Shown here: positions 17,724 to 57,197 of the stretch, piece after piece
Numbering within the stretch: the first letter of the stretch is position 1
How the letters are laid out: each line of letters begins with the position of its first letter
Source of the DNA: Bradyrhizobium sp. CCGUVB4N
Lineage (GTDB): Bacteria > Pseudomonadota > Alphaproteobacteria > Rhizobiales > Xanthobacteraceae
Reading direction: 5' to 3'
Length of the DNA stretch: 64,000 nucleotides
Assembly: GCF_024199945.1 (NCBI RefSeq)
Contig: NZ_JANADP010000001.1
Location: 1,674,001-1,738,000 of the forward strand
The notes under the pieces: model-generated
Told to the model about the DNA's origin: nothing
What the model saw: the letters and a program-made list of their open reading frames with translations, nothing else
The model's database searches: none
Position numbers and translations under genes: made by a program

Positions 17724-19082
17724 ATGCCGCGCAATGGTGAAATGACGCTCGGACTTTACTTGGTTCAGACAGGATATCATGAAAGTGCTTGGAGGGATCC
17801 GAGTGTTCCGGCGAACGGCGGAGTTGATGTCGACCATTATGGTCATTTGGCAGAGCTAGCAGAGGGCGCGGCATTTCACTTCGTGTTTTTCGCCGACACT
17901 CTGAGCGTAGTAGAACGCGATAACGCAAGCTTGGCCCGCGCAGGCCGAAACGACGGGTTCGAGCCAATTACGCTGTTGTCGGCACTCTCGTCGAGAACGC
18001 GAAACATTGGCCTTGTCGCAACAGCGAGCACTACGTATCACCAGCCGTATCATCTTGCGCGCATGCTCGCATCACTTGATCATTTATCGCGGGGGCGTGC
18101 TGCCTGGAACGTTGTCACCTCGGGATTCGAGGCCGAAGCGCCAAATTTTGGTGACAAGGAACTTCCGCATCATGACAAGCGCTATGCTCGAGCGCGAGAA
18201 TTCGTTGACGTCGTAAAGGGCTTATGGGATTCGTGGGAAGACGGAGCCTTCATTCGCGATAAGCCGAGTGGTATTTTCGTGGACACCACTAAAGTGCATT
18301 TGCTTAACCACCGAGGCAGCTTCTTATCAGTGAGGGGTCCACTGAACATCGCGCGGCCGCCGCAAGGTCATCCTGTGTTGGTTCAGGCGGGCGCGTCCGA
18401 TGCCGGAATAGCGTTCGCCTCAGAAGTCGGTGAGGTGGTGTTCACCGCTGAACCGTGCTTAGAAAACGGTAAACGATACTACACAAGTCTAAAAGACAAA
18501 GCGCATGCACTTGGGCGGGAGGAAAATCAGATTCTAATCATGCCGGGCATTGTCCCGATCGTCGGGAGGACCAAGCAAGAGGCGTCTGAGAAGCTTGAAA
18601 GACTGCAATCGTATAGTCATATAGACGTTCAAATTGAAACCGCTGAGCGTTGGCTTGGGTTTGTCGTGGACCTGCGTTCGGTCGACCTGGACTCATTCGT
18701 CCCCGAAGCATTGCCGGAGACGAATCTGATCCGGAGCCGCCAAAAGGTGCTTCTCGACTTGGCTGCTCGCCAGAAACTCACCTGGAGAGAACTGATCCGC
18801 TTAGTGTCGGCTAGCAAAGGCCATCTCATGGTTGTTGGAACACCGGACGAAATTGCCAATGCTATGGTGGATGCATTTGATCAACGCGCGGCTGATGGAT
18901 TCAACGTACTTCCCCCGACTGTTCCAGGTGGACTCAAGGATTTTGTGGAGCTTGTCGTGCCCGAATTGCGCCGCCGTGCCAAATTCCGAGCCGGATACTC
19001 CGGACAAACACTGAGGGAGAACCTCGGTCTCAAGCGGCCGCTCAATCGGTTTATCCAGACAGGCGCGTCTACTGGCCTGTAA
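17724..19082 (+). CDS. FMN-dependent monooxygenase, NtaA/SnaA/DszA type
   Basis: A 452-residue luciferase-like flavin monooxygenase of the nitrilotriacetate/desulfurisation subgroup. These enzymes use FMNH2 from a partner reductase and O2 to oxidise small organic substrates in the cytoplasm. Landmarks: ADTLSVVERDNASLARAG (about 55-72), FEPITLLSALSSRTRNIGLV, SLDHLSRGRAAWNVVTS with the FMN-binding region (about 115-135), and HPVLVQAGASDAG (about 215). It ends LKDFVELVVPELRRRAKFR, as complete homologues do. No reductase gene is visible nearby, so the electron donor must be encoded elsewhere. The substrate cannot be told from sequence. Confidence 0.88.
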   Translation: MPRNGEMTLGLYLVQTGYHESAWRDPSVPANGGVDVDHYGHLAELAEGAAFHFVFFADTLSVVERDNASLARAGRNDGFEPITLLSALSSRTRNIGLVATASTTYHQPYHLARMLASLDHLSRGRAAWNVVTSGFEAEAPNFGDKELPHHDKRYARAREFVDVVKGLWDSWEDGAFIRDKPSGIFVDTTKVHLLNHRGSFLSVRGPLNIARPPQGHPVLVQAGASDAGIAFASEVGEVVFTAEPCLENGKRYYTSLKDKAHALGREENQILIMPGIVPIVGRTKQEASEKLERLQSYSHIDVQIETAERWLGFVVDLRSVDLDSFVPEALPETNLIRSRQKVLLDLAARQKLTWRELIRLVSASKGHLMVVGTPDEIANAMVDAFDQRAADGFNVLPPTVPGGLKDFVELVVPELRRRAKFRAGYSGQTLRENLGLKRPLNRFIQTGASTGL

Positions 19083-19818: not shown

Positions 19819-21157
19819 GACGCTGTTCCGGATGACGTTGCCGCCCTGAAGGAGGCGCTGGCAGTCGAGCGCGCGAAGGGTTTGGAGATCGCCGCTGAGC
19901 TCGCGGTCGCCCGCGCGAAAGCGTCGGAAGACGAAGCGCTGATCGCCCAGCAGCAGTTGCAGATCGCCAAGCTGAAGCATCAGATCTATGGGCAACGGTC
20001 GGAACGTTCGGCGCGGCTGATCGAGCAGTTGGCGCTGACGTTCGAAGAGCTGGAAGCCGACGCCACCGAGGACGAGCTTGCGGCGGAACGAGCCGTGGCG
20101 AAGACGACGACGGTGCGCGGATTTACGCGCAAGCGCGCTGAGCGCCAGACCTTCCCTGAGCACACCTTCCCCGGGAGCGGGTAGTGATCGAAGGACCTAC
20201 GGCTTGTGAATGCTGCGGCAGCAATCGCCTTCGCAAGCTCGGCGAGGATATGACGCGCACGCTGGAAGTAGTGCCGCGCCAGTGGAAGGTGATCGAGACG
20301 GTCCGGGAGAAGTTCTCCTGCCGCGATTGCGAGAAGATCAGCCAGCCGCCGGCGCCATTCCATGCCATCGCCCGGGGATGGGCTGGCCCGAGCCTCCTGG
20401 CCATGATCATGTTCGAGAAGTTCGGCCAGCATCAGCCCTTGAACCGCCAGGCCGAGCGCTATGCCCTGGAAGGGGTGCCGATCGCGCTGTCGACCATGGC
20501 TGATGCCGTGGGGGCGGTCTGTGCGTCGCTGGATTCCCTACTGCGCCTGGTGGAAGCCCATGTCATGGCAGCCGAGCGCCTTCATGCTGACGATACGACG
20601 GTGCCGGTCCTGGCTAAGGGCAAGACCGACACGGGACGGTGCTGGATCTACGTTCGGGACGACCGGCCGTTTGGGGGCGCGGGTCCAACGGCAGCGATGT
20701 TCTACTACTCACGCGACCGCAAGGGCGAGCATCCGCAGGGGCATCTGGCCCGGTATGCCGGCATCCTGCAGGCCGACGCCTATGACGGCTACAACCAGCT
20801 CTATCTGGCCGGGCGCCAGCCCGGACCGATCCGGGAGGCTGCCTGCTGGTCGCATGGAAGGCGCCCATTCTTTCCCATGGCCGACATCGAAGAGAATGCG
20901 CAGCGCAAGGGTGTCGGAAAGAAGGAAATCCCGCTCTCTCCGATTGCGATCGAGGTCGTGCGGCGGATCGATGCGCTGTTCGAGATCGAACGCTCCATCA
21001 AGGGCAGGAGCCCCGAAGGGCGTCTTCAGGTGCGACAGACGCTGAGCCGGCCTCTGGTCGAGGACCTTCAGGTCTACATGCGCGAACAGCTCGCCAAACT
21101 GTCTCGTGGTCACGACCTGGCCAAGGCGTTCAACTACATCCTGAAGCGATGGACTAG
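19819..21157 (+). pseudogene. IS66 TnpC, frameshifted and truncated
   Basis: The first frame (19819-20184) holds the leucine-zipper-like N-terminus (ALIAQQQLQIAKLKHQIYGQ). A two-base disturbance near 20165 moves to the frame from 20184 with the zinc finger CECCGSNRLRKLGED, HQPLNRQAERYALEGVPIAL, the DDE core start LHADDTTVPVLAKGKTDTGR, QADAYDGYNQLY and the later RIDALFEIERSIKGRSPEGR. The match ends at LKRWTRF near 21157, so the C-terminal domain is lost. Confidence 0.85.
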
Positions 21158-21397
21158 GTTTATGCCGAGATCGAGCGTATCCTACTCAGGCGCTGGAGGA
21201 CAAAATCCGAGAGCGTATGGGCGTCATGCCCGACCTCGCTCGAGCTCCCTCAACCGAATCAATCCATTCAGACCACATCGATATCGGAAAGGTCGAGAGG
21301 CGTGGCCTCCGCTCATGCCCGCCAACCGCCCGACTGGCAGCATAGTTTCGTTCCCGCCGCTCTCAGTGGCTGTGACTTCTCAAAACGCGTGAGAAAT
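21158..21397 (+). other. Spacer, possible 3' end of a lost gene
   Basis: Downstream of the IS66 break one frame reads ALEDKIRERMGVMPDLARAP and then SIHSDHIDIGKVERRG before closing. It looks coding in style, but I cannot name it. It may be the tail of a gene removed by the IS66 event. Confidence 0.3.
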
Positions 21398-37247: not shown

Positions 37248-38135
37248 ATGGCGCGCGCAAACCAAGCTTCATCGACTGCCCAAGTAAACCGCGATCGGTT
37301 GGACTGCGTGCAAGGTCAAATCGCTTTTGCTCGGCGGGCGCCCGATGAAAAGGCTCCCGCGGTTGTCGTGCCGAACTACGAAGCGTATCCCATGGTCACT
37401 CACGACGTGACCATTCGCAACGCGCGCCCGATCGTGGGAGAATTATCGCTCGACAGGGAAGGCTTCGCCCTGGTTGAGCACAAGACCTTCTGTGCAGACG
37501 TGCGTGACCCAGAGGTCATGGCCGAGAAATATCTCGACGAAATGGTGCCCTTCATCAAGAGCTACTTCAATGCGTCGTGGGTCATTCCACGTCGAAAGGG
37601 CATTCGTGTTCGCTCCTCGTCCGGAGCCGCCATTCCCAAGGCCGGCTGGAACTCGGTTTCCGGAGTAAGGGAACCGGCTGGCATCGCTCATATCGACTAC
37701 GCACCCGTCGCATGTCCGATGCTCGCTGCGGCCGAGGACCAAGTGCAGGGGATTCCGATTCGAGCGTATTCTCGATTGATGCTGATTCAGGCGTGGCGCG
37801 CTCTTTCGCCGCCTCCGCAGGATATCCCGTTAGCATTGTGCGACTGCTCCACTGTTCAAGATACCGATGTTGCCGTGGTCGACTACAATACCGACACGAG
37901 CCGAAACGAGCCTGGCAGCTCGACCAAGGGCGCCGTGCTTCGCTTCAATCCCGCTCAGCGTTGGTACTATTTCCCGGAAATGACTCCGGACGAGCTCATT
38001 TTGTTCAAGGGCTATGATTCCGAGGAGCACTACAAGCCTCAGGCGCCTCACTCTGCGTTTGACGATCGCGCCGCATACCCCAATGCAAAGCCCCGTGAGA
38101 GTGTCGAGGCGCGCTTCTTCGTCTATTTCGAGTGA
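37248..38135 (+). CDS. CmcJ/NvfI-family oxygenase-like protein, copy 1
   Basis: A 295-residue protein of the CmcJ/NvfI family (also named for AsaB/GibA-type fungal enzymes), whose characterised relatives act as methoxylation partners or non-haem iron oxygenases in secondary metabolism. A likely iron triad is visible: His148 and Asp150 in PAGIAHIDYAP and His268 in KPQAPHSAFDD, with the C-terminal Arg in ARFFVY as a possible 2-oxoglutarate contact (inferred). Another conserved block is PIRAYSRLMLIQAWRALSPP. A good ribosome-binding site (TAGGGAGA) precedes the ATG. A dyad lies upstream and a terminator downstream, so it is a one-gene unit. It has two close paralogues at 38750 and 41601. Confidence 0.8.
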   Translation: MARANQASSTAQVNRDRLDCVQGQIAFARRAPDEKAPAVVVPNYEAYPMVTHDVTIRNARPIVGELSLDREGFALVEHKTFCADVRDPEVMAEKYLDEMVPFIKSYFNASWVIPRRKGIRVRSSSGAAIPKAGWNSVSGVREPAGIAHIDYAPVACPMLAAAEDQVQGIPIRAYSRLMLIQAWRALSPPPQDIPLALCDCSTVQDTDVAVVDYNTDTSRNEPGSSTKGAVLRFNPAQRWYYFPEMTPDELILFKGYDSEEHYKPQAPHSAFDDRAAYPNAKPRESVEARFFVYFE

Positions 38136-38749: not shown

Positions 38750-39634
38750 ATGGGCAATCCGAAACGAGCCTCGTCGACAGTACAGGTAGACCGCGACCAG
38801 TTGGAGTGCGTGCAAGGTCAAATTGCCTTTGCTCGGCGCGCGCCCGATGAAAAGGCTCCAGCAGTTGTTGTGCCGAATTATGAGCACGTTTCCATCGTGA
38901 GCTACGACGTCACCATTCGCAACGCGCGCCCGCTCGTTGACGAACTGTCTCTCGACAGGGAAGGCTTCGCCCTGATCCAGCACAAGACCTCCTGTGCAGA
39001 CGTGCGCGATCCAGAGATTATGCGCGAGAAGTATCTCGAAGAGATGGTTCCATTCATCAAGAGCTACTTCAATGCATCATGGGTCGTGCCCAAGCGAAAC
39101 GGCGTTTACGTTCGTCGTGCCGCTGGGACGGCAATCCCCAAAGCAGGCTGGACTGCCGTTGATGGAGTAAGAGAGCCGGCTGGATTGGCTCATATTGATC
39201 TCGCGCCGATTGCCGGTCCGGCAGCCGCCGCGGCCGAAGACCAATTGCAGGGCCTTCCGATCCGGGCCTATTCTCGATTGATGGTCATACAAGCTTGGCG
39301 GGCTCTCTCGCCACCTCCGCAGGATTTTCCCTTGGCGTTCTGCGATGCGAGTACCGTTCGCGACGGCGATATGCTCGTGCATGACTACGTTTCAAATACC
39401 AAGAACGAACCGGGCAGCGCGTTCAAGAGCTGTGCCCTTCGCTACAGCGCGGATCAGCGTTGGTACTACTTCCCGGAAATGACTGCGGACGACCTCGTTC
39501 TGTTCAAGGGCTATGATTCCGAGGAGCACTATAAGCCGCAAGCGCCGCACTCGGCATTTGACGATCGTCGCGCCCATCCCAACGCAAAGCCCCGCGAGAG
39601 CGTGGAGGCCCGCTTTTTCGTGTACTATGACTGA
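38750..39634 (+). CDS. CmcJ/NvfI-family oxygenase-like protein, copy 2
   Basis: A 294-residue paralogue of copy 1, collinear along its length. The presumed iron ligands are His148, Asp150 (PAGLAHIDLAP) and His267 (KPQAPHSAFDD). The segments VVVPNYEHVSIVSYDVTIRN and SPPPQDFPLAFCDASTVRDG are closer to copy 3 than to copy 1. The ATG follows CTAGGGAGAAAT. It has its own dyad upstream and a long hairpin downstream, so it too looks separately transcribed. Retention of all ligands in three copies suggests selection for related but different substrates, or dosage. Confidence 0.8.
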   Translation: MGNPKRASSTVQVDRDQLECVQGQIAFARRAPDEKAPAVVVPNYEHVSIVSYDVTIRNARPLVDELSLDREGFALIQHKTSCADVRDPEIMREKYLEEMVPFIKSYFNASWVVPKRNGVYVRRAAGTAIPKAGWTAVDGVREPAGLAHIDLAPIAGPAAAAAEDQLQGLPIRAYSRLMVIQAWRALSPPPQDFPLAFCDASTVRDGDMLVHDYVSNTKNEPGSAFKSCALRYSADQRWYYFPEMTADDLVLFKGYDSEEHYKPQAPHSAFDDRRAHPNAKPRESVEARFFVYYD

Positions 39635-41387: not shown

Positions 41388-41494
41388 ACTTGAAAGCGCT
41401 CGCAGTCCCCACAGGGCCGACGAAGCAGCGGACCTCTCCGCCAATCCGCCAACCAAGTTGGCGGTTCGGTGCTCGATCGGCATCGCGCCGGATT

Positions 41495-41507
41495 GCAGAA
41501 TTTCTGC
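41495..41507. promoter_or_regulatory. Lux-box-like dyad upstream of oxygenase copy 3
   Basis: GCAGAATTTCTGC is a perfect 13-bp dyad, centred 100 bp before ATG 41601. Its core differs by one base from the site at 37147. Confidence 0.5.
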
Positions 41508-41600
41508 GAGCTACGACCGGATTTTGCTGCTTATGAACGTGAAGCATATTCTATGCTGATAGCTCGATATGGGGCACCATCTCTAGGGAGGCGGGCAGCC

Positions 41601-42458
41601 ATGGGCTATGCGAAGCGAGCCTCATCGACAGCAAAAGTAGACCGCGACCAGTTGGAGTGCGTGCAAGGCCAAGTAGCCTTTGCTCGACGTACGCCCGACG
41701 AACAGGCTCCGGCGGTTGTTGTGCCGAATTATGAACACGTTCCCATCGTGAGTTACGAGGTCCCCATTCGCGACGCCCGTCCCATCGTGGACGAACTATC
41801 TCTCGACCGCGAAGGCTTCGTTTTGATTCAGCACAAGACTTCCTGTGCGAACGTGCGCGATCCAGAGATCATGCGCGAGAAGTATCTAGAAGAGATGCTT
41901 CCATTCATAAAGAGCCACTTCAACGCCTCGTGGGTCATCGCCCGCCCCAGTGGCCTGCATGTGCGTCGTGCCGCCGGGACGGCAATTCCCAAGGGCGGCT
42001 GGAATTCCGTAGCTGGAATAAGGGAGCCGGCCGGGTTGGCTCACATCGATGTCGCACCGATTTCCGGTCCTATGAGAGCAGCCGCCGAGAGCCAGGCACA
42101 GGGCCTTCCGATTCGAGCGTATTCCCGATTAATGCTCATTCAACTCTGGCGTGCTCTCTCGCCGCCTCCGCAGGATTTCCCGTTAGCGTTCTGCGATGCG
42201 AGCACCATTGGTGATAAGGATGTGTCCGTGGTGGACTACGGCGTCAACAAGAGTTGCGTCGTCCGCTTCAATTCGAATCAGCGTTGGTATTACTTCCCGG
42301 AAATGACTGCGGACGATCTGGTTCTGTTCAAGGGCTATGATTCCGCCGTACATTACGGTCCGATGTCAGCTCACTCGGCATTCGACAATCGACGCGCATA
42401 TCCGAACGCAAAACCCCGCGAGAGCGTGGAGGCTCGCTTCTACGTATACTTAGATTAA
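41601..42458 (+). CDS. CmcJ/NvfI-family oxygenase-like protein, copy 3
   Basis: A 285-residue third paralogue. The presumed ligands are His148, Asp150 (PAGLAHIDVAP) and His258 (GPMSAHSAFDN). It is shorter because a loop of about nine residues present in copies 1 and 2 (around the NEPGS segment) is missing, and the residues near the distal His differ (SAVHYGPMS versus SEEHYKPQA), so the substrate pocket may differ. I start at ATG 41601, in line with copies 1 and 2 and after CTAGGGAGG; an upstream in-frame start at 41469 would add 44 unrelated residues and cover the dyad. Confidence 0.8.
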   Translation: MGYAKRASSTAKVDRDQLECVQGQVAFARRTPDEQAPAVVVPNYEHVPIVSYEVPIRDARPIVDELSLDREGFVLIQHKTSCANVRDPEIMREKYLEEMLPFIKSHFNASWVIARPSGLHVRRAAGTAIPKGGWNSVAGIREPAGLAHIDVAPISGPMRAAAESQAQGLPIRAYSRLMLIQLWRALSPPPQDFPLAFCDASTIGDKDVSVVDYGVNKSCVVRFNSNQRWYYFPEMTADDLVLFKGYDSAVHYGPMSAHSAFDNRRAYPNAKPRESVEARFYVYLD

Positions 42459-43620: not shown

Positions 43621-44358
43621 GTGTGTTCATACACGATGTATCGCGCCATTCAGAACTTTGTCGATCGACTGACCGAAAGCACAGACCAGGATTGCCTTCG
43701 GCAGAGCATGGCGGATATCGCGACGACGCTGAACCTATCCTGCTTTGCATATCTTAGTTTCGCTCGTAAACTCGAAGATCCCCCCAAGCTCATCTCGACC
43801 TATCCGCCAACCTGGACAGCGCATTACCTGGGGCGCCACTACGAACGGTTCGATCCAGTGGTCGGCCAGGCCATCCGCGATACTCGACCCTTTCGGTGGG
43901 GTCTTGGGCTCGGACCGCGAGCTCGGTCCGAATTTGAGCGGGAACTCTTTGAAGAAGCCGCCAGGTTCGGCATTCGGTATGGATTTACGATTCCAATCCA
44001 CGATAGTAAGGGTGCAATCGCCGCCGTCAGCTTCGCGACCGACGAGCGGCGAACAAAATTCGAGCGCTCGATAAACGAGCACGCCCAGGCCCTGCGGCTA
44101 ATGGCGATGTTCTTCCATGCGCACGCCGGTCGCATGTTGCGGTCCGAGCGCATGGTCGATGGCGTCTTATTGTCGCCTCGCGAGTTCGAATGTCTCGAAT
44201 GGTATTCCCTGGGAAAATCCGCTTGGGAGATCGGCAATATTCTCGGGATATCTCCACGAACCGTTGGATTTCATCGGGATAATGCCCGAGCGAAGCTCGG
44301 GGTTCGGACGATTCATCAAGCAGTTGTGCGATTGGCCGAATCAAAGTCTCGAAGATAA
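43621..44358 (+). CDS. LuxR-family quorum-sensing regulator
   Basis: A 245-residue (240 from ATG 43636) acyl-homoserine-lactone receptor and transcription factor. The autoinducer-binding domain (about 20-160) has the conserved ligand-pocket residues: Trp and Tyr in YPPTWTAHYLGRHYERFDP, Asp-Pro in FDPVV, Trp in RPFRWGLGLG and Gly in RYGFTIPIHDSKG. The C-terminal HTH is LSPREFECLEWYSLGKSAWE then ISPRTVGFHRDNARAKLGV. GTG 43621 or ATG 43636 may be the start. It is followed 95 bp later by luxI, the usual pair, with a palindrome in between. It should respond to the cognate LuxI signal; the signal structure is not predictable from sequence. Confidence 0.93.
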   Translation: MCSYTMYRAIQNFVDRLTESTDQDCLRQSMADIATTLNLSCFAYLSFARKLEDPPKLISTYPPTWTAHYLGRHYERFDPVVGQAIRDTRPFRWGLGLGPRARSEFERELFEEAARFGIRYGFTIPIHDSKGAIAAVSFATDERRTKFERSINEHAQALRLMAMFFHAHAGRMLRSERMVDGVLLSPREFECLEWYSLGKSAWEIGNILGISPRTVGFHRDNARAKLGVRTIHQAVVRLAESKSRR

Positions 44359-44380
44359 TTGGGGGATCATTCATAATCAC

Positions 44381-44398
44381 CCTGTGCATCTGCACAGG
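44381..44398. promoter_or_regulatory. Perfect lux-box-like palindrome before luxI
   Basis: CCTGTGCATCTGCACAGG is an 18-bp perfect inverted repeat, 56-73 bp before luxI. The TGTGCA/TGCACA arms resemble the tra box bound by Agrobacterium TraR. This suggests LuxR autoinduction of luxI. Confidence 0.85.
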
Positions 44399-44453
44399 AT
44401 GCGCTTGCATCAGCTTCTCTGCTTTCACTGCGGTACAAGCAGGGAGGACAGCA

Positions 44454-45086
44454 ATGATGCTGCTCATCACGCCAAGCTACTATGGCGAGTTCGTCGATGA
44501 ACTCGCTGAAATGCACCGGTTGCGCTATCGCGTTTTCAAACAGCGTCTTGATTGGGATGTCCAGGTCAGCGGCGACATGGAAGTCGACGAATTTGACGTC
44601 CTTCGGCCAGTCCACTTGCTGCATCGCTCGACACATGGACGCATTCAGGGGTGCGTTCGGCTTCTCCCGTCGAACGGACCAACCATGATTAGAGATACCT
44701 TTCCCATTCTTCTGGACGGACAGGCGGTGCCACGAAGCGACCATGTCTGGGAGAGCAGCCGTTTTGCTCTCGATGTTTCTCCGGATGCACCGAAAGCGGG
44801 CGGTGGACTTGCCAGTGCAACATACGAGCTATTTGCAGGCATGGTCGAGTTCGGCCTTTCCATTAATCTGGCCGAAATCGTAACCGTCACCGACGCCCGC
44901 ATGGAGCGCATTCTTCGGCGCGCCGGGTGGCCGCTGCGCCCGATCGGAAAGCCTCGACCGCTCGGCAATACTCTTGCCTTGGCAGGCTACCTGGAGGTGT
45001 CAACTGATGCCCTGGAGCGCATTCGAAAGTCGGGGCAGATCCCTGGCCCGGTGCTCTGGGCGCCCGTCATCCGAACGGCCGCCTAA
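44454..45086 (+). CDS. Acyl-homoserine-lactone synthase (LuxI family)
   Basis: A 210-residue autoinducer synthase that joins S-adenosylmethionine with an acyl or aryl thioester. The invariant family residues are present: Arg and Phe in LRYRVFKQRLDWDV, Trp in the same block, Asp residues in MEVDEFDVLRPV, Arg in GCVRLLPSNGPTM, Phe in IRDTFPILL, and Glu and Arg in VWESSRFALDVSP. The C-terminus is complete. The acyl donor may be ACP or CoA; some Bradyrhizobium enzymes use branched or aryl CoA, but this cannot be decided here. It is controlled most likely by the lux box upstream. Confidence 0.95.
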   Translation: MMLLITPSYYGEFVDELAEMHRLRYRVFKQRLDWDVQVSGDMEVDEFDVLRPVHLLHRSTHGRIQGCVRLLPSNGPTMIRDTFPILLDGQAVPRSDHVWESSRFALDVSPDAPKAGGGLASATYELFAGMVEFGLSINLAEIVTVTDARMERILRRAGWPLRPIGKPRPLGNTLALAGYLEVSTDALERIRKSGQIPGPVLWAPVIRTAA

Positions 45087-45158: not shown

Positions 45159-46028
45159 ATGACCAATTCTCGAGGAACGAGTCCTTCTATTCAAGGCAGC
45201 AAGGCAATCGAGCTAAAGCACCTGCGGTCGGCCGTGGCTGCGGCCGATTGTGGCAGCCTTCGTCAAGCCGCTGAGCTGCTCAGATCACAACAGTCTACCC
45301 TCAGCCGATTGGTTAGCCAGATCGAGCACTACCTCGGCGTCGCGATGTTTGAACGCTCAAGCGGAGGTGTAACTCCAACGGCTGCAGGCCGCAGCATTCT
45401 TCGCCTGGCGAGAACGATCCTGGAAGAATTTGACGCGCTTATAGCAACGGCAAAGTCCCTTCAAAACGGCGAAGCCGGTCGGCTGACCATCGGGTTCTGC
45501 ACATCACTTACCGCGGGAAAACTGAAAGCGTCCCTGCTCGACTTCAAGCAGCGATTTCCGCGGATCGAAGTGGCGACTGTTGAACGATCGCGGACAAGGC
45601 TTGCAACGGCGCTTCGCAACGGCGTACTTGACATTCTCATCGTCACGGGAAGCCTGCCGCTACCAGACTGTAAAACCAGGGCGCTGTGGAGCGAACGTGT
45701 CCTGGTTGCCTTGCCACAAGAACATCCCCTCACTGCGCGCCAGGCAATCTACTGGACAGACCTGCGCGGCGAGACGGTCCTGCTAAGCTATTACGATCCC
45801 GGGCGGGACTTCGAAGATTTATTGGTTTCGAAGCTCGTCCTGCCCGAAGATCGTCCCAGGATCGAGCGCCACGACGTCAGCTGCGGTATCATCAAGAGCC
45901 TGATCAGCATGAAGGCCGGCATTAGCCTGGTCCTCGAATCTGATACGGGGGCCATTTTTGCCGACCTGGTCTACCGAGACGTGCGCGATGGCACGGGCCC
46001 AAGCCGGTTCGACTTTTCGGCCTACTGG
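45159..46028 (+). pseudogene. LysR-family regulator, 5' part (split by IS21)
   Basis: About 290 codons of a LysR-type regulator: HTH IELKHLRSAVAAADCGSLRQ, AAELLRSQQSTLSRLVSQIE, LGVAMFERSSGGVTPTAAGR, then the effector domain (RLTIGFCTSLTAGKLKASLL). At SAYW (Trp codon 46026-46028) the IS21 begins and the frame stops three codons later. The last 27 codons are found at 49486-49569. Removing the element and one 5-bp duplication restores the frame exactly: SAYW-RADNESPTLGAFLRLL. Because the lost tail is short, a partly active product cannot be excluded. Confidence 0.92.
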
Positions 46029-46145
46029 TGTTGGTGACTTTCTAAATCCGCACAAAAATGACGACAAGAATGGGCGGTAGGATGGTGAGGGAACTAAAAA
46101 GGCGGCCCGCAAAGGCCGCCGCCGAGTGTCGCAGTGGTGTGTGTT

Positions 46146-46367
46146 TCAGAAGGAGTATGGTTGCTCTTCGTCGTCGCGGTGATCGGCCGGCGCTTGTTGC
46201 TCCTGGATGAGTTCCTGGATCTTGAGGCAGTAGTGCGACCAGATGTTGTCGGATAGATCCTTGAGGAGCTCGTGGACAGCGAGCGCCTGCTCCGGGGTCC
46301 ATTCGGGATTGATGAGGAAGCTGATCCCGAAGTTGAGGCCGGATGGTTGATGGTGGTTTCTGGTCAT
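46146..46367 (-). CDS. Small protein downstream of istB
   Basis: A 73-residue acidic protein: MTRNHHQPSGLNFGISFLIN, PEWTPEQALAVHELLKDLSD, then SHYCLKIQELIQEQ. Its start overlaps the istB stop (ATGA), so it is co-translated and belongs to the element. Function unknown. Confidence 0.7.
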   Translation of the reverse strand: MTRNHHQPSGLNFGISFLINPEWTPEQALAVHELLKDLSDNIWSHYCLKIQELIQEQQAPADHRDDEEQPYSF

Positions 46368-47143
46368 GCAACGTGCTCCTTCTCGTTGGTGCTGGCGGGC
46401 CGGCTTCGATGCTGTGTGCTCTGGGCCTCGGCGCGTTCCAGAGCTTCCTTGAGGCGGTAGGATTCGCCGTCGATGGAGATCACCTCGGATCGGTGCACGA
46501 GGCGGTCGACCAGGCTGACGACACATGCGGCATTTGGGAAGACCTCCGTCCATGCGGCGAAGGGCTTGTTGGTGGTCACGATTGTGGAGCGGGCCTGATA
46601 GCGCCGGCTGACGAGTTCGAACAGCAGGTCTGCGTGACGGTTCGAGTAGGATAGATATCCCACCTCGTCGATCGCCAGAACGTCGGCGGCGGCGTAGTGA
46701 TGGAGCCTTCGGCGCAAAGCGGTATCGCTGTCGAGGGCGGCAAGCTCGCCGAGCATTTCGCTGGCCGATCGGAACAAGACCGAGTGACCGGCGATGAGCG
46801 CCTGGTAGGCGATATTCTGCGCGAGGGTCGACTTTCCGACGCCGTTTGGTCCGACGAAGACGATGTTGGTTGCGTCGTTCATGAAGGACAGCGACATCAA
46901 TTGCTCCACTGCGGCGCGGTCGAGGCGCCTGGACCAGAGCCAGTCGTAATCGGCCATCGGTTTGAAGTGACCGATCCTGGCGTCGCGCAGGCGTCGCTGC
47001 AGCGAGCGCCGGGCACGTTCCTCCTCCTCCCATTGCAGCATGGGGGCCAGCCATGGGGCGCCGGCGATTTCGTCCCAGTGTTCGACCAGGCCGTTGAGGC
47101 GCAGCGCCTTGGCGCGGTTCAGCAGGGCATCATCAGTGCTCAT
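46364..47143 (-). CDS. istB: IS21 helper ATPase IstB
   Basis: A 259-residue AAA+ ATPase that assists IstA in target selection. Walker A is VFVGPNGVGKSTLAQNIAYQ and Walker B is VLAIDEVGYLSYSNR; VSRRYQARSTIVTTNKPF follows as in the family. Its start overlaps the end of istA by 11 bp. It appears intact. Confidence 0.95.
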   Translation of the reverse strand: MSTDDALLNRAKALRLNGLVEHWDEIAGAPWLAPMLQWEEEERARRSLQRRLRDARIGHFKPMADYDWLWSRRLDRAAVEQLMSLSFMNDATNIVFVGPNGVGKSTLAQNIAYQALIAGHSVLFRSASEMLGELAALDSDTALRRRLHHYAAADVLAIDEVGYLSYSNRHADLLFELVSRRYQARSTIVTTNKPFAAWTEVFPNAACVVSLVDRLVHRSEVISIDGESYRLKEALERAEAQSTQHRSRPASTNEKEHVA

Positions 47144-48638
47144 CGTCGTTATCTCCAGAAGGGGTCAGTTGGTCGTAGCTGTCGAGGCGGTGCGGCCGGA
47201 CCGTTGTATCCTTGCGCCGCACATGTTCGGGCAGGCTGGTTTCGACGGGCGGCGGTTCACCACGCTCAAGGCGCCGACGTTCGAGTGCGGCGCGGACCGT
47301 CGCCGCATGGACGGAGCCCGCACGCAAAGCGTCCTCGACCGCAGCCTGCAATTCCGTTGCGCCGTAGCGATCGAGCAGCCGCAGCAGCGCGGTCGTGAGC
47401 GCACCGATGTTGGCGCCACGTTCGGCGGCCCTGATCATCAGGGTCTGACAGACCGGCACGGCTCGGGTGAGGCTGTTGAGGCCGCGATGCTGGCGCGCCT
47501 CACGCTTGATCTCGACGAGATCCTTCAGGTGTCGTCGGTCTTCGATCTCTTGGCCACGATCATAGCTGCGACGGTGACTGGCGATCATTTGCGCGCCGTC
47601 GAAGATCCGGACCTGGCTGAGATCGGCCCGCACGCTCAGCATGCGCCGAACATGGGTATGGGGAACCGTGTAGTCGTTCAGGTCGAACCGCACATAGGGC
47701 GTTTTGCCGACCTTCACGGCGACCTGCTCCTCAACGGGATACGGGTTGGCGGGCAGCGGCAGAAGCAGTGGTTGCTCCTTTGCGAACGCCTGGCGTACTG
47801 TCATCTCGCGATCCTCCGGACATGGTCGGTCCGCCGCTTCGGATCGGCACCATTGTTCGGCCTGGGCATTCAGGTCGTCGAGATCGGTGAACTTGCGGGC
47901 GATGAAGAATGCCTCCCGGATATGCCGTATAGCGCGCTCGACACGGCCTTTTTCGTTGCCCCGGGCAACCGCGACAGGACGCGGCTCGAACCGATAATGG
48001 CCGGCGAAGGCAAGCAGCGTGGGATGGAATCGGATCGCATCACCCTGGCGCTCGAGCACCGCGCTCTTAAGATTGTCGTAGAGCAGGACCCGGGGCAGCC
48101 CACACCATGTGTTGAACGCGCCGATGTGGCCGCGCAGGAAGTTTTCCATGCGCGCATCGAGGAAGAAGCGCAGGTAGATGTCGCGCGAGTACGACAGCAC
48201 CATGACGAACGCCATCAGCGGACGGCGGGCGCGACCGATCTCGATGTGACCGAAGTGCCCCCAATCCACCTGCCCTTGTTCAGACGGCAACGTGCGCAGC
48301 CGCAGGAACGCCTCGGCTGGCTTGCGTGGACGGTGCAAAGCGATCAGGTGCCGGAAGTAGCTGGGCGACCCGCGGTAGCCGCGCTCACGCATCATCGCAT
48401 ACAGGCGGCTGGCCGTGAGTGCGGGGAACTGCTCCAGCGTCTTCAGGACGATCGGCAGATAGGGCTCGATCTTCGTGGGCCGCAATATCGGCCTATTCCT
48501 GGGCAGTCCGGCCTGGGTCAGGACGCGATGCACGGTCGTGTGATGAACCCGCAACTGCTTCGCAATGGTGCCGCAGCGCCATTTCTCGACGTGATACAGA
48601 CGCAGGATCTGCGCTTCCAATTCAGGGATAACGGTCAT
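47133..48638 (-). CDS. istA: IS21 transposase IstA
   Basis: A transposase of about 501 residues from ATG 48638 (further in-frame ATGs at 48659 and 48674). N-terminal HTH: LEAQILRLYHVEKWRCGTIA, KQLRVHHTTVHRVL. The rve catalytic core has Asp in SEQGQVDWGHFGHIEIG, Asp in VLLYDNLKSAVLERQG and Glu in NEKGRVERAIRHIREAFF. The C-terminus has SLPEHVRRKDTTVRPHRL. Intact, so the element may still move. The long plus-strand frame over it is an antisense shadow. Confidence 0.95.
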   Translation of the reverse strand: MTVIPELEAQILRLYHVEKWRCGTIAKQLRVHHTTVHRVLTQAGLPRNRPILRPTKIEPYLPIVLKTLEQFPALTASRLYAMMRERGYRGSPSYFRHLIALHRPRKPAEAFLRLRTLPSEQGQVDWGHFGHIEIGRARRPLMAFVMVLSYSRDIYLRFFLDARMENFLRGHIGAFNTWCGLPRVLLYDNLKSAVLERQGDAIRFHPTLLAFAGHYRFEPRPVAVARGNEKGRVERAIRHIREAFFIARKFTDLDDLNAQAEQWCRSEAADRPCPEDREMTVRQAFAKEQPLLLPLPANPYPVEEQVAVKVGKTPYVRFDLNDYTVPHTHVRRMLSVRADLSQVRIFDGAQMIASHRRSYDRGQEIEDRRHLKDLVEIKREARQHRGLNSLTRAVPVCQTLMIRAAERGANIGALTTALLRLLDRYGATELQAAVEDALRAGSVHAATVRAALERRRLERGEPPPVETSLPEHVRRKDTTVRPHRLDSYDQLTPSGDNDDEH

Positions 48639-49086
48639 CGGTCGGGTCTCGGCCTCCATAGGCGGGGTGCGCATGACGAGGCCCCCGGCGACGCACGAAG
48701 CCGGTACGAACGAACATCGACAACCGACAGCCGCAGAGCCGACAGCTCGGCATGGGCATGATCGATGTCGTCGCTCGCTCGCCGACGTCAGTAGGTGCAA
48801 CGACGACATCGTCCGCAGGCCGGCGCAGTAGTGAACCGACAGGGCATGCGGGTGGAGAGTGATGCGTCACGTTATTGTGCCGCGCCCGGTATCGTCGGGC
48901 CCGGGTCGCATGCGCCAGGCGTCCGCGGCGGCTGCGCTGATAACGCTGTCCCGCCTCGCGCAGGCTCTCGCGGCGGGCAGCACGGGCGCAGTCATGGCCG
49001 CAATAGCGTTGTCCCCGGTCGCAGTTGCGGCAGATCGTGACCTGCGAACGGCAGCGGCCGCACAGAAAGAAGCGGCCCGTGAGCAT
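48622..49086 (-). CDS. Zinc-ribbon accessory protein of IS21
   Basis: A Cys-rich, strongly basic protein upstream of istA: MLTGRFFLCGRCRSQVTICR, NCDRGQRYCGHDCARAARRE, SLREAGQRYQRSRRGRLAHA. The paired CxxC/CxxxC pattern suggests a zinc ribbon with a basic tail that could bind DNA. The frame is open further up to 49173. Its end overlaps the istA start region. Similar ORFs accompany some rhizobial IS21 elements; the role is unknown. Confidence 0.55.
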   Translation of the reverse strand: MLTGRFFLCGRCRSQVTICRNCDRGQRYCGHDCARAARRESLREAGQRYQRSRRGRLAHATRARRYRARHNNVTHHSPPACPVGSLLRRPADDVVVAPTDVGERATTSIMPMPSCRLCGCRLSMFVRTGFVRRRGPRHAHPAYGGRDPTDDRYP

Positions 49087-55622: not shown

Positions 55623-57197
55623 ATGAGTCGCAAGCCCACGACGCACGAGCTGGAAGCCTTGATCGCGGCGCTGAAGGCCGAGAACGAGAAGCTCGCGCAG
55701 CGCGTGAGGCACCTTGAGGAGCAGTTGCGGCTGGAGCGGCTGCATCGCTACGCGCCACGCAGCGAGAAGCTCAAGGATCGCATCTTCAACGAAGCCGAAC
55801 AGGCTTCCGCCGAAGAAGGCGCGGAACAGGACGATCTCGAACCGGCGGTCGTGCCGGATACGGGGCGGCCGGAGGGTGAGACGCCCGCGCCGAAGAAGCG
55901 CGGCCGCAAGCCTCTGCCGGCGGATCTGCCGCGCCAGCGTATCGAACATGATCTGCCCGAGGACCGGAAGGCCTGCCCGTGCTGCCGGAATCGGATGCAC
56001 CGGATGGGCGAGAACGTCACCGAACAACTGCATATCGAGGTGAAGGCGACAGTGCTGCAGCACGTGCGGTTCAAGTACGCGTGCCGTCACTGCGAGCGCA
56101 CTGCGCTGAACACCCCGATCGTGATCGCACCGATGCCGGCGCAGCCATTGCCGGGCAGCGTCGCCACGGCTTCGACGCTGGCGCTCGTGCTGGCCAACAA
56201 ATACGTCGACGGCACGCCGCTGTATCGTCTGGCGGACGCGCTGGCACGCGCCAACGTCAGCGTCGGCCGCGGCGCCCTGGCCAATTGGGTGATCCGGTCG
56301 AGCGAATTGCACCTGCAACGCGTGTATGATGCGCTGAAGCAAACGCTCCGGTCGCAGCCTCTGATCCATGGCGACGAGACGTGGGTCAAGGTCCTCAAGG
56401 AGGACGGGCGGGATGCGCAGACCAAATCGTACATGTGGGTCTACCGCAGTGGCCAGGACAGCGCCCAGCCAGTCGTGTTGTTCGATTACCAGCCCGGTCG
56501 CGGCCAGGAGCATCCACAGGCCTTCCTGGCCAGTTGGGGCGGCCTGTTGATGAGCGACGGCTATGACGCCTGGCGCACGCTCTCCGGTGTCACTCATCTT
56601 GGCTGCATGGCGCACGCGCGCAGGAAATTTACCGACGCGCTCAAGGCGATGAAGAAGCCCGGCGGCCTCTCGTTGCAGGCACTCAGGTTCTTCGAGGCAT
56701 TGTATGAGGTCGAGAGGCTGGCGCGCCAGACGCCGCCCGACGGCAAAACGCGCGCCGAATACGCCTTGCGGCTGCGCCAGCAGCACAGCGTCCCGGTCCT
56801 GGCTGCGTTCAAAAATTGGCTCGACGATCAGGCGCCGAACGTGCTGCCCGAAAGCCTGACCGGCAAGGCCATCGCCTATGCCCGCAACCAATGGGATTAT
56901 CTGGCCCGCTACGCCAATGATGGCCTTGCGCCGATCGACAACAATGTTCTCGAACGCGACATCAGACCCTTTGTGACCGGAAGAAAAAACTGGTTGTTCA
57001 GCGACACCGTCGCCGGCGCAAAGGCCAGCGCGGTGATCTACAGCCTGGTGCTGACATGCCGGGCCTGCGACGTTGAGCCCTACGCCTGGCTATGTCACGT
57101 GCTCGCTGAACTGCCGCAGCGTCCGCCCGACGCCGACATCGAAGACCTGTTGCCATTCAACTTTGCCAAGCACGCACAGACCGTCAACCCTGGCTGA
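55623..57197 (+). CDS. tnpC: IS66 transposase TnpC (inner copy)
   Basis: A 524-residue DDE transposase. Coiled-coil-like N-terminus (HELEALIAALKAENEKLAQR), zinc-binding CPCCRNRMHRMGENV, then FKYACRHCERTAL. DDE core: QPLIHGDETWVKVLKEDGRD (first Asp), LLMSDGYDAWRTLSGVTHLG (second Asp) and PIDNNVLERDIRPFVTGRKN (Glu). The C-terminal domain ends YAWLCHVLAELPQRPPDADI. Intact. A long minus-strand frame over it is antisense. Confidence 0.95.
   Translation: MSRKPTTHELEALIAALKAENEKLAQRVRHLEEQLRLERLHRYAPRSEKLKDRIFNEAEQASAEEGAEQDDLEPAVVPDTGRPEGETPAPKKRGRKPLPADLPRQRIEHDLPEDRKACPCCRNRMHRMGENVTEQLHIEVKATVLQHVRFKYACRHCERTALNTPIVIAPMPAQPLPGSVATASTLALVLANKYVDGTPLYRLADALARANVSVGRGALANWVIRSSELHLQRVYDALKQTLRSQPLIHGDETWVKVLKEDGRDAQTKSYMWVYRSGQDSAQPVVLFDYQPGRGQEHPQAFLASWGGLLMSDGYDAWRTLSGVTHLGCMAHARRKFTDALKAMKKPGGLSLQALRFFEALYEVERLARQTPPDGKTRAEYALRLRQQHSVPVLAAFKNWLDDQAPNVLPESLTGKAIAYARNQWDYLARYANDGLAPIDNNVLERDIRPFVTGRKNWLFSDTVAGAKASAVIYSLVLTCRACDVEPYAWLCHVLAELPQRPPDADIEDLLPFNFAKHAQTVNPG

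Follow-up and report, generated by a model that had tools for sequence, protein, structure and literature searches.

A conserved inverted repeat between luxR and luxI of a Bradyrhizobium strain is a probable lux box for luxI autoinduction

The tra box of TraR has TGTGCA arms lying 4 bp apart. In the accessible part of one report, the motif CT-N12-AG is named for the las and pip boxes (PMC4471428). In Mesorhizobium japonicum MAFF 303099, as given in the available portion of the source, an inverted repeat is centred 61.5 bp before the start codon of I1, and a reporter combining R1 with the I1 promoter showed an approximately eightfold rise with culture extracts (PMC10470506); Pseudomonas putida served in that work as a laboratory host free of an AHL circuit of its own. 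The luxR–luxI locus of Bradyrhizobium sp. CCGUVB4N (Table 1) contains a site that is best read as an ordinary member of this known kind, a LuxR-type operator which would serve luxI autoinduction.

Table 1. Features of the luxR–luxI locus, with positions in the window (the whole stretch of 64,000 nucleotides analysed)
Feature	Coordinates	Strand	Description
Putative lux box	44381..44398	.	arms of 8 bp around a central TC; dyad 64.5 bp upstream of the luxI ATG
luxR-type receptor gene	43621..44358 (stop codon included)	+	245 aa; Pfam Autoind_bind 4.4e-29, GerE 2.7e-16
luxI-type acyl-homoserine-lactone synthase gene	44454..45086	+	210 aa; Pfam Autoind_synth 1.9e-51
LysR-type regulator gene	45159..46037	+	after luxI; Pfam HTH_1, LysR_substrate

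The flanking genes are a LuxR–LuxI quorum-sensing pair: adjoining Autoind_bind plus GerE and Autoind_synth proteins, with all three domains above the Pfam cut-off. Among solved chains, the best match by E-value to LuxR is TraR (2q0o), with LasR next, and the best match to the luxI product is LasI (1ro5, 7.8e-32). The luxR frame starts with GTG, with an ATG 15 bases further in, and in its product R213 opens the recognition helix. A GGGAGG stretch directly precedes the luxI ATG. Three frames of about 290 aa that look alike by eye (37248–38135, 38750–39634 and 41469–42458), and for which no Pfam match was found, precede luxR on its own strand; the second and third are separated by an aldehyde dehydrogenase gene. 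Elsewhere in the window there are two minus-strand frames resembling, by eye, an IS21-type transposase and its helper (46146–48809), IS66 transposase genes (20184–21392 and 55623–57197) and a luciferase-like monooxygenase (17724–19082).

The site reads CCTGTGCA-TC-TGCACAGG (in full, 18 bases, CCTGTGCATCTGCACAGG) and lies in the 95-bp gap between luxR and luxI, with 22 bases between it and the luxR stop codon and 55 between it and the luxI ATG. The preliminary description had the sequence, coordinates and place of this palindrome right, but in calling it fully palindromic it went too far: the 8-bp arms are perfect, while the central TC is not self-complementary, giving symmetry at 16 of 18 positions and a minus-strand match whose two mismatches are both central bases. 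The site has the frame of a lux box, an inverted repeat of about 18–20 bp upstream of luxI with CT-N12-AG, and is the sole site in the window at up to three mismatches, detected on both strands.

Conservation was followed in 81 loci, comprising the window and 80 kept of 86 relatives, with related loci not collapsed; the nearest named relatives of luxI are from Bradyrhizobium. At up to two mismatches the box is present in 29 of the 81, window included (13 with none, 12 with one and 4 with two). All 29 carriers have it once, starting 70–81 bp before the start of the luxI match, and no extra copy was found in the 791,776 bases searched. The place before luxI is also kept by other versions of the box in some other relatives, where different palindromes stand at a roughly equal position. 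The 52 loci without this version include such palindromes, weakly symmetric sites, matches that do not begin at the luxI start, and identical copies; six of them (L035–L040) share one identical upstream sequence. These data leave very little room for a chance palindrome, or for an RNA hairpin with no regulator. Once transcribed, a DNA palindrome can also act as an RNA hairpin, but no terminator-like site was found at 44340–44470, relatives keep one distance from luxI although the surroundings of the box have diverged, and shuffled versions of the window yield a mean of 0.03 matches, so chance is a poor explanation of the box.

The palindrome is very probably the operator of the LuxR–LuxI pair, at which a signal-bound LuxR dimer would activate luxI. 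LuxR, carrying the signal made by LuxI, would settle on the palindrome as a dimer, with one half-site for each subunit, and the bound protein would then activate luxI from just upstream of its promoter, resulting in autoinduction. Binding by LuxR, its dependence on ligand, activation and the choice of the adjacent LuxR as binder are predictions from sequence. Position and conservation among relatives give good support to the lux box for luxI autoinduction put forward in the preliminary description, and the box itself would represent one more probable autoinduced luxI.

The genome, a single contig of 9,212,720 bases (9.21 Mb), contains three luxI matches and four Autoind_bind matches. Together with the fact that no sigma-70-like promoter was found at 44340–44470, these numbers lend something to the idea that a LuxR bound at the site acts as a repressor of luxI or luxR, or that the site works for a LuxR encoded at another place in the genome. 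This is nonetheless improbable, as the box is upstream of luxI in all 29 carrier loci and the other two luxI genes have different upstream sequences. A second luxR–luxI pair with the same gene order lies about 120 kb away (C1:1597238–1600762), and a LysR-like frame, judged by eye, seems to come after it as well. No palindrome with at least 7 of 8 arm positions was found in the 160 bp preceding its luxI (the best has 6), and in the 600 bp before the third luxI two palindromes reach 7 of 8, one at -261 and the other, closer to the gene, ACTGGGAAATTTCCCAAT at -62. The box described here is therefore not shared by the three pairs. A genome scan for further copies, suggested earlier as a means of defining the regulon, found CTGTGCANNTGCACAG at one exact site, at one site with a single mismatch and at 16 sites in total with up to two mismatches, against 12 for a reversed control pattern. 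There is no clear excess, and the copy numbers give no pointer to a regulon. The only single-mismatch copy of the box core (L002, 1501–1516) is apparently within an open frame.

A side lead, more interesting than the box itself and worth following, concerns the DNA specificity of LuxR. During comparison of the loci, the LuxR position that precedes the conserved T in the recognition helix was seen to vary with the box. From 277 sequences, 280 luxI frames were obtained, 224 of them with an upstream luxR on the same strand. After removal of exact repeats there were 184 rows whose helix could be read, with a few loci represented twice; 84 of these rows had a palindrome with at least 7 of 8 arm positions. 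With a CCT-N12-AGG anchor there were 76 rows, with 58 inside a zone picked after viewing the data. Within this zone set, from which L133 and L268 were left out for the mismatch of their halves, arginine is accompanied by G at box position 4 in 36 rows and by another base in none, while other residues have G in 2 rows (L079, with H, and L218, with S) and another base in 18. In the raw counts the association is strong, R213 pairing with G and the remaining residues chiefly with A or C. Arginine would read G (CCTGT), and H, N, A, S, K and P would for the most part be paired with C or A (CCTCC, CCTCT, CCTAG, CCTAT and CCTAC). The rows dropped by the zone include rule-fitting sites (L082, L088) and also CCTCC sites, some 65 bp ahead of the model start, in five R proteins (L084, L086, L257, L263 and L264); should these sites be genuine, they count against the rule. 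By the author's own score, calculated without permutations, alignment column 266 (R213) is the top-ranking LuxR column for base 4 when clustering is set at 0.9, 0.8 or 0.7; it drops to second place at 0.6 and falls outside the first four at 0.5.

For a held-out test, the rule, anchor, zone and models were frozen before later-fetched loci were scored. These comprised 102 loci (L277–L378, two repeating earlier places) with 96 luxI frames, and luxR was accepted in either orientation, as opposed to the same strand only in the first set; 27 were lost for want of a nearby luxR, 1 of a readable helix and 36 of an anchored site. Counted as distinct helix–site pairs within the zone, there was 1 R with G, no R without G, no other residue with G and 15 others without G (Fisher p 0.06). 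When the zone was lifted the counts became 3, 1, 0 and 16 (p 0.0035), leaving out two mixed sites that both belong to R proteins (L277, L296); the one R protein counted as lacking G is L310, whose site matches at 5 of 8 arm positions and stands 62 bp ahead of the model start. The non-R rows are mostly one related A group from one genome family and are not independent, one member (L103) having already been in the first set. A looser anchor applied to the 36 unanchored pairs gave six distinct sites over the author's threshold: two in R proteins, both with G, and four in proteins with other residues, all lacking G. The best sites below the threshold are of mixed value: several R proteins have CTGT...ACAG and several A and S proteins have CTAG or CTAT, but the halves differ in L347, L353 and L356 (A), G stands on both sides in L363 and L364 (N), and there is no G in L307 (R).

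On a tree of the 58 rows, there is 1 independent contrast on well-supported branches and 5 on all branches. The first and new rows were then combined in a tree built with the helix hidden; this 86-row set has 39 R with G, no R without G, 2 others with G, 43 others without G and 2 mixed sites. Two rows from outside the zone, both of which fit, were added by hand (L374, L376), and L310, L277 and L296 were not, so that the zero for R without G is partly a matter of choice. Here 4 independent contrasts are well supported (7 on all branches); the base followed the residue in a mean of 3.3 of the 4 and opposed it in none. The phylogenetic test of the rule gave no significance, as fewer than six contrasts cannot reach 0.05.

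A rule by which one LuxR residue, the first of the recognition helix (R213 in this protein), determines base 4 of the box has about even chances of being true. The rule is a consistent hypothesis and not an established result, because the well-supported independent contrasts number only four and some of the sites were selected post hoc. No statement of it was found in the accessible parts of the open-licence literature, a source that takes in few subscription journals and so gives weak evidence of absence. If the rule is true, one substitution with matching box changes could insulate related quorum-sensing circuits in one cell, there would be a simple, testable basis for keeping parallel circuits of a genome apart, and the boxes of many uncharacterised LuxR proteins might be predicted from one residue.

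Compared with known systems, the resemblance to the TraR tra box noted in the preliminary description extends to the TGTGCA arms, and a TraR (2q0o) is the best solved match to this LuxR. It does not extend to spacing: the arms are 2 bp apart here as against 4 bp in the tra box, a spacing on which membership of the tra boxes was rejected and which fits CT-N12-AG instead. The inner bases of the las box differ from those of this box, and LasR has A at the alignment position of R213. The las box of Pseudomonas aeruginosa does share the CT-N12-AG frame, as far as the accessible part of the source goes (PMC4471428). In the available portion of the M. japonicum report, a crotonase-family gene follows I1, whereas a LysR gene follows luxI here; the two loci are alike in carrying an inverted repeat about 60 bp before a luxI-type start, with the dyad in Bradyrhizobium lying 64.5 bp before the ATG.
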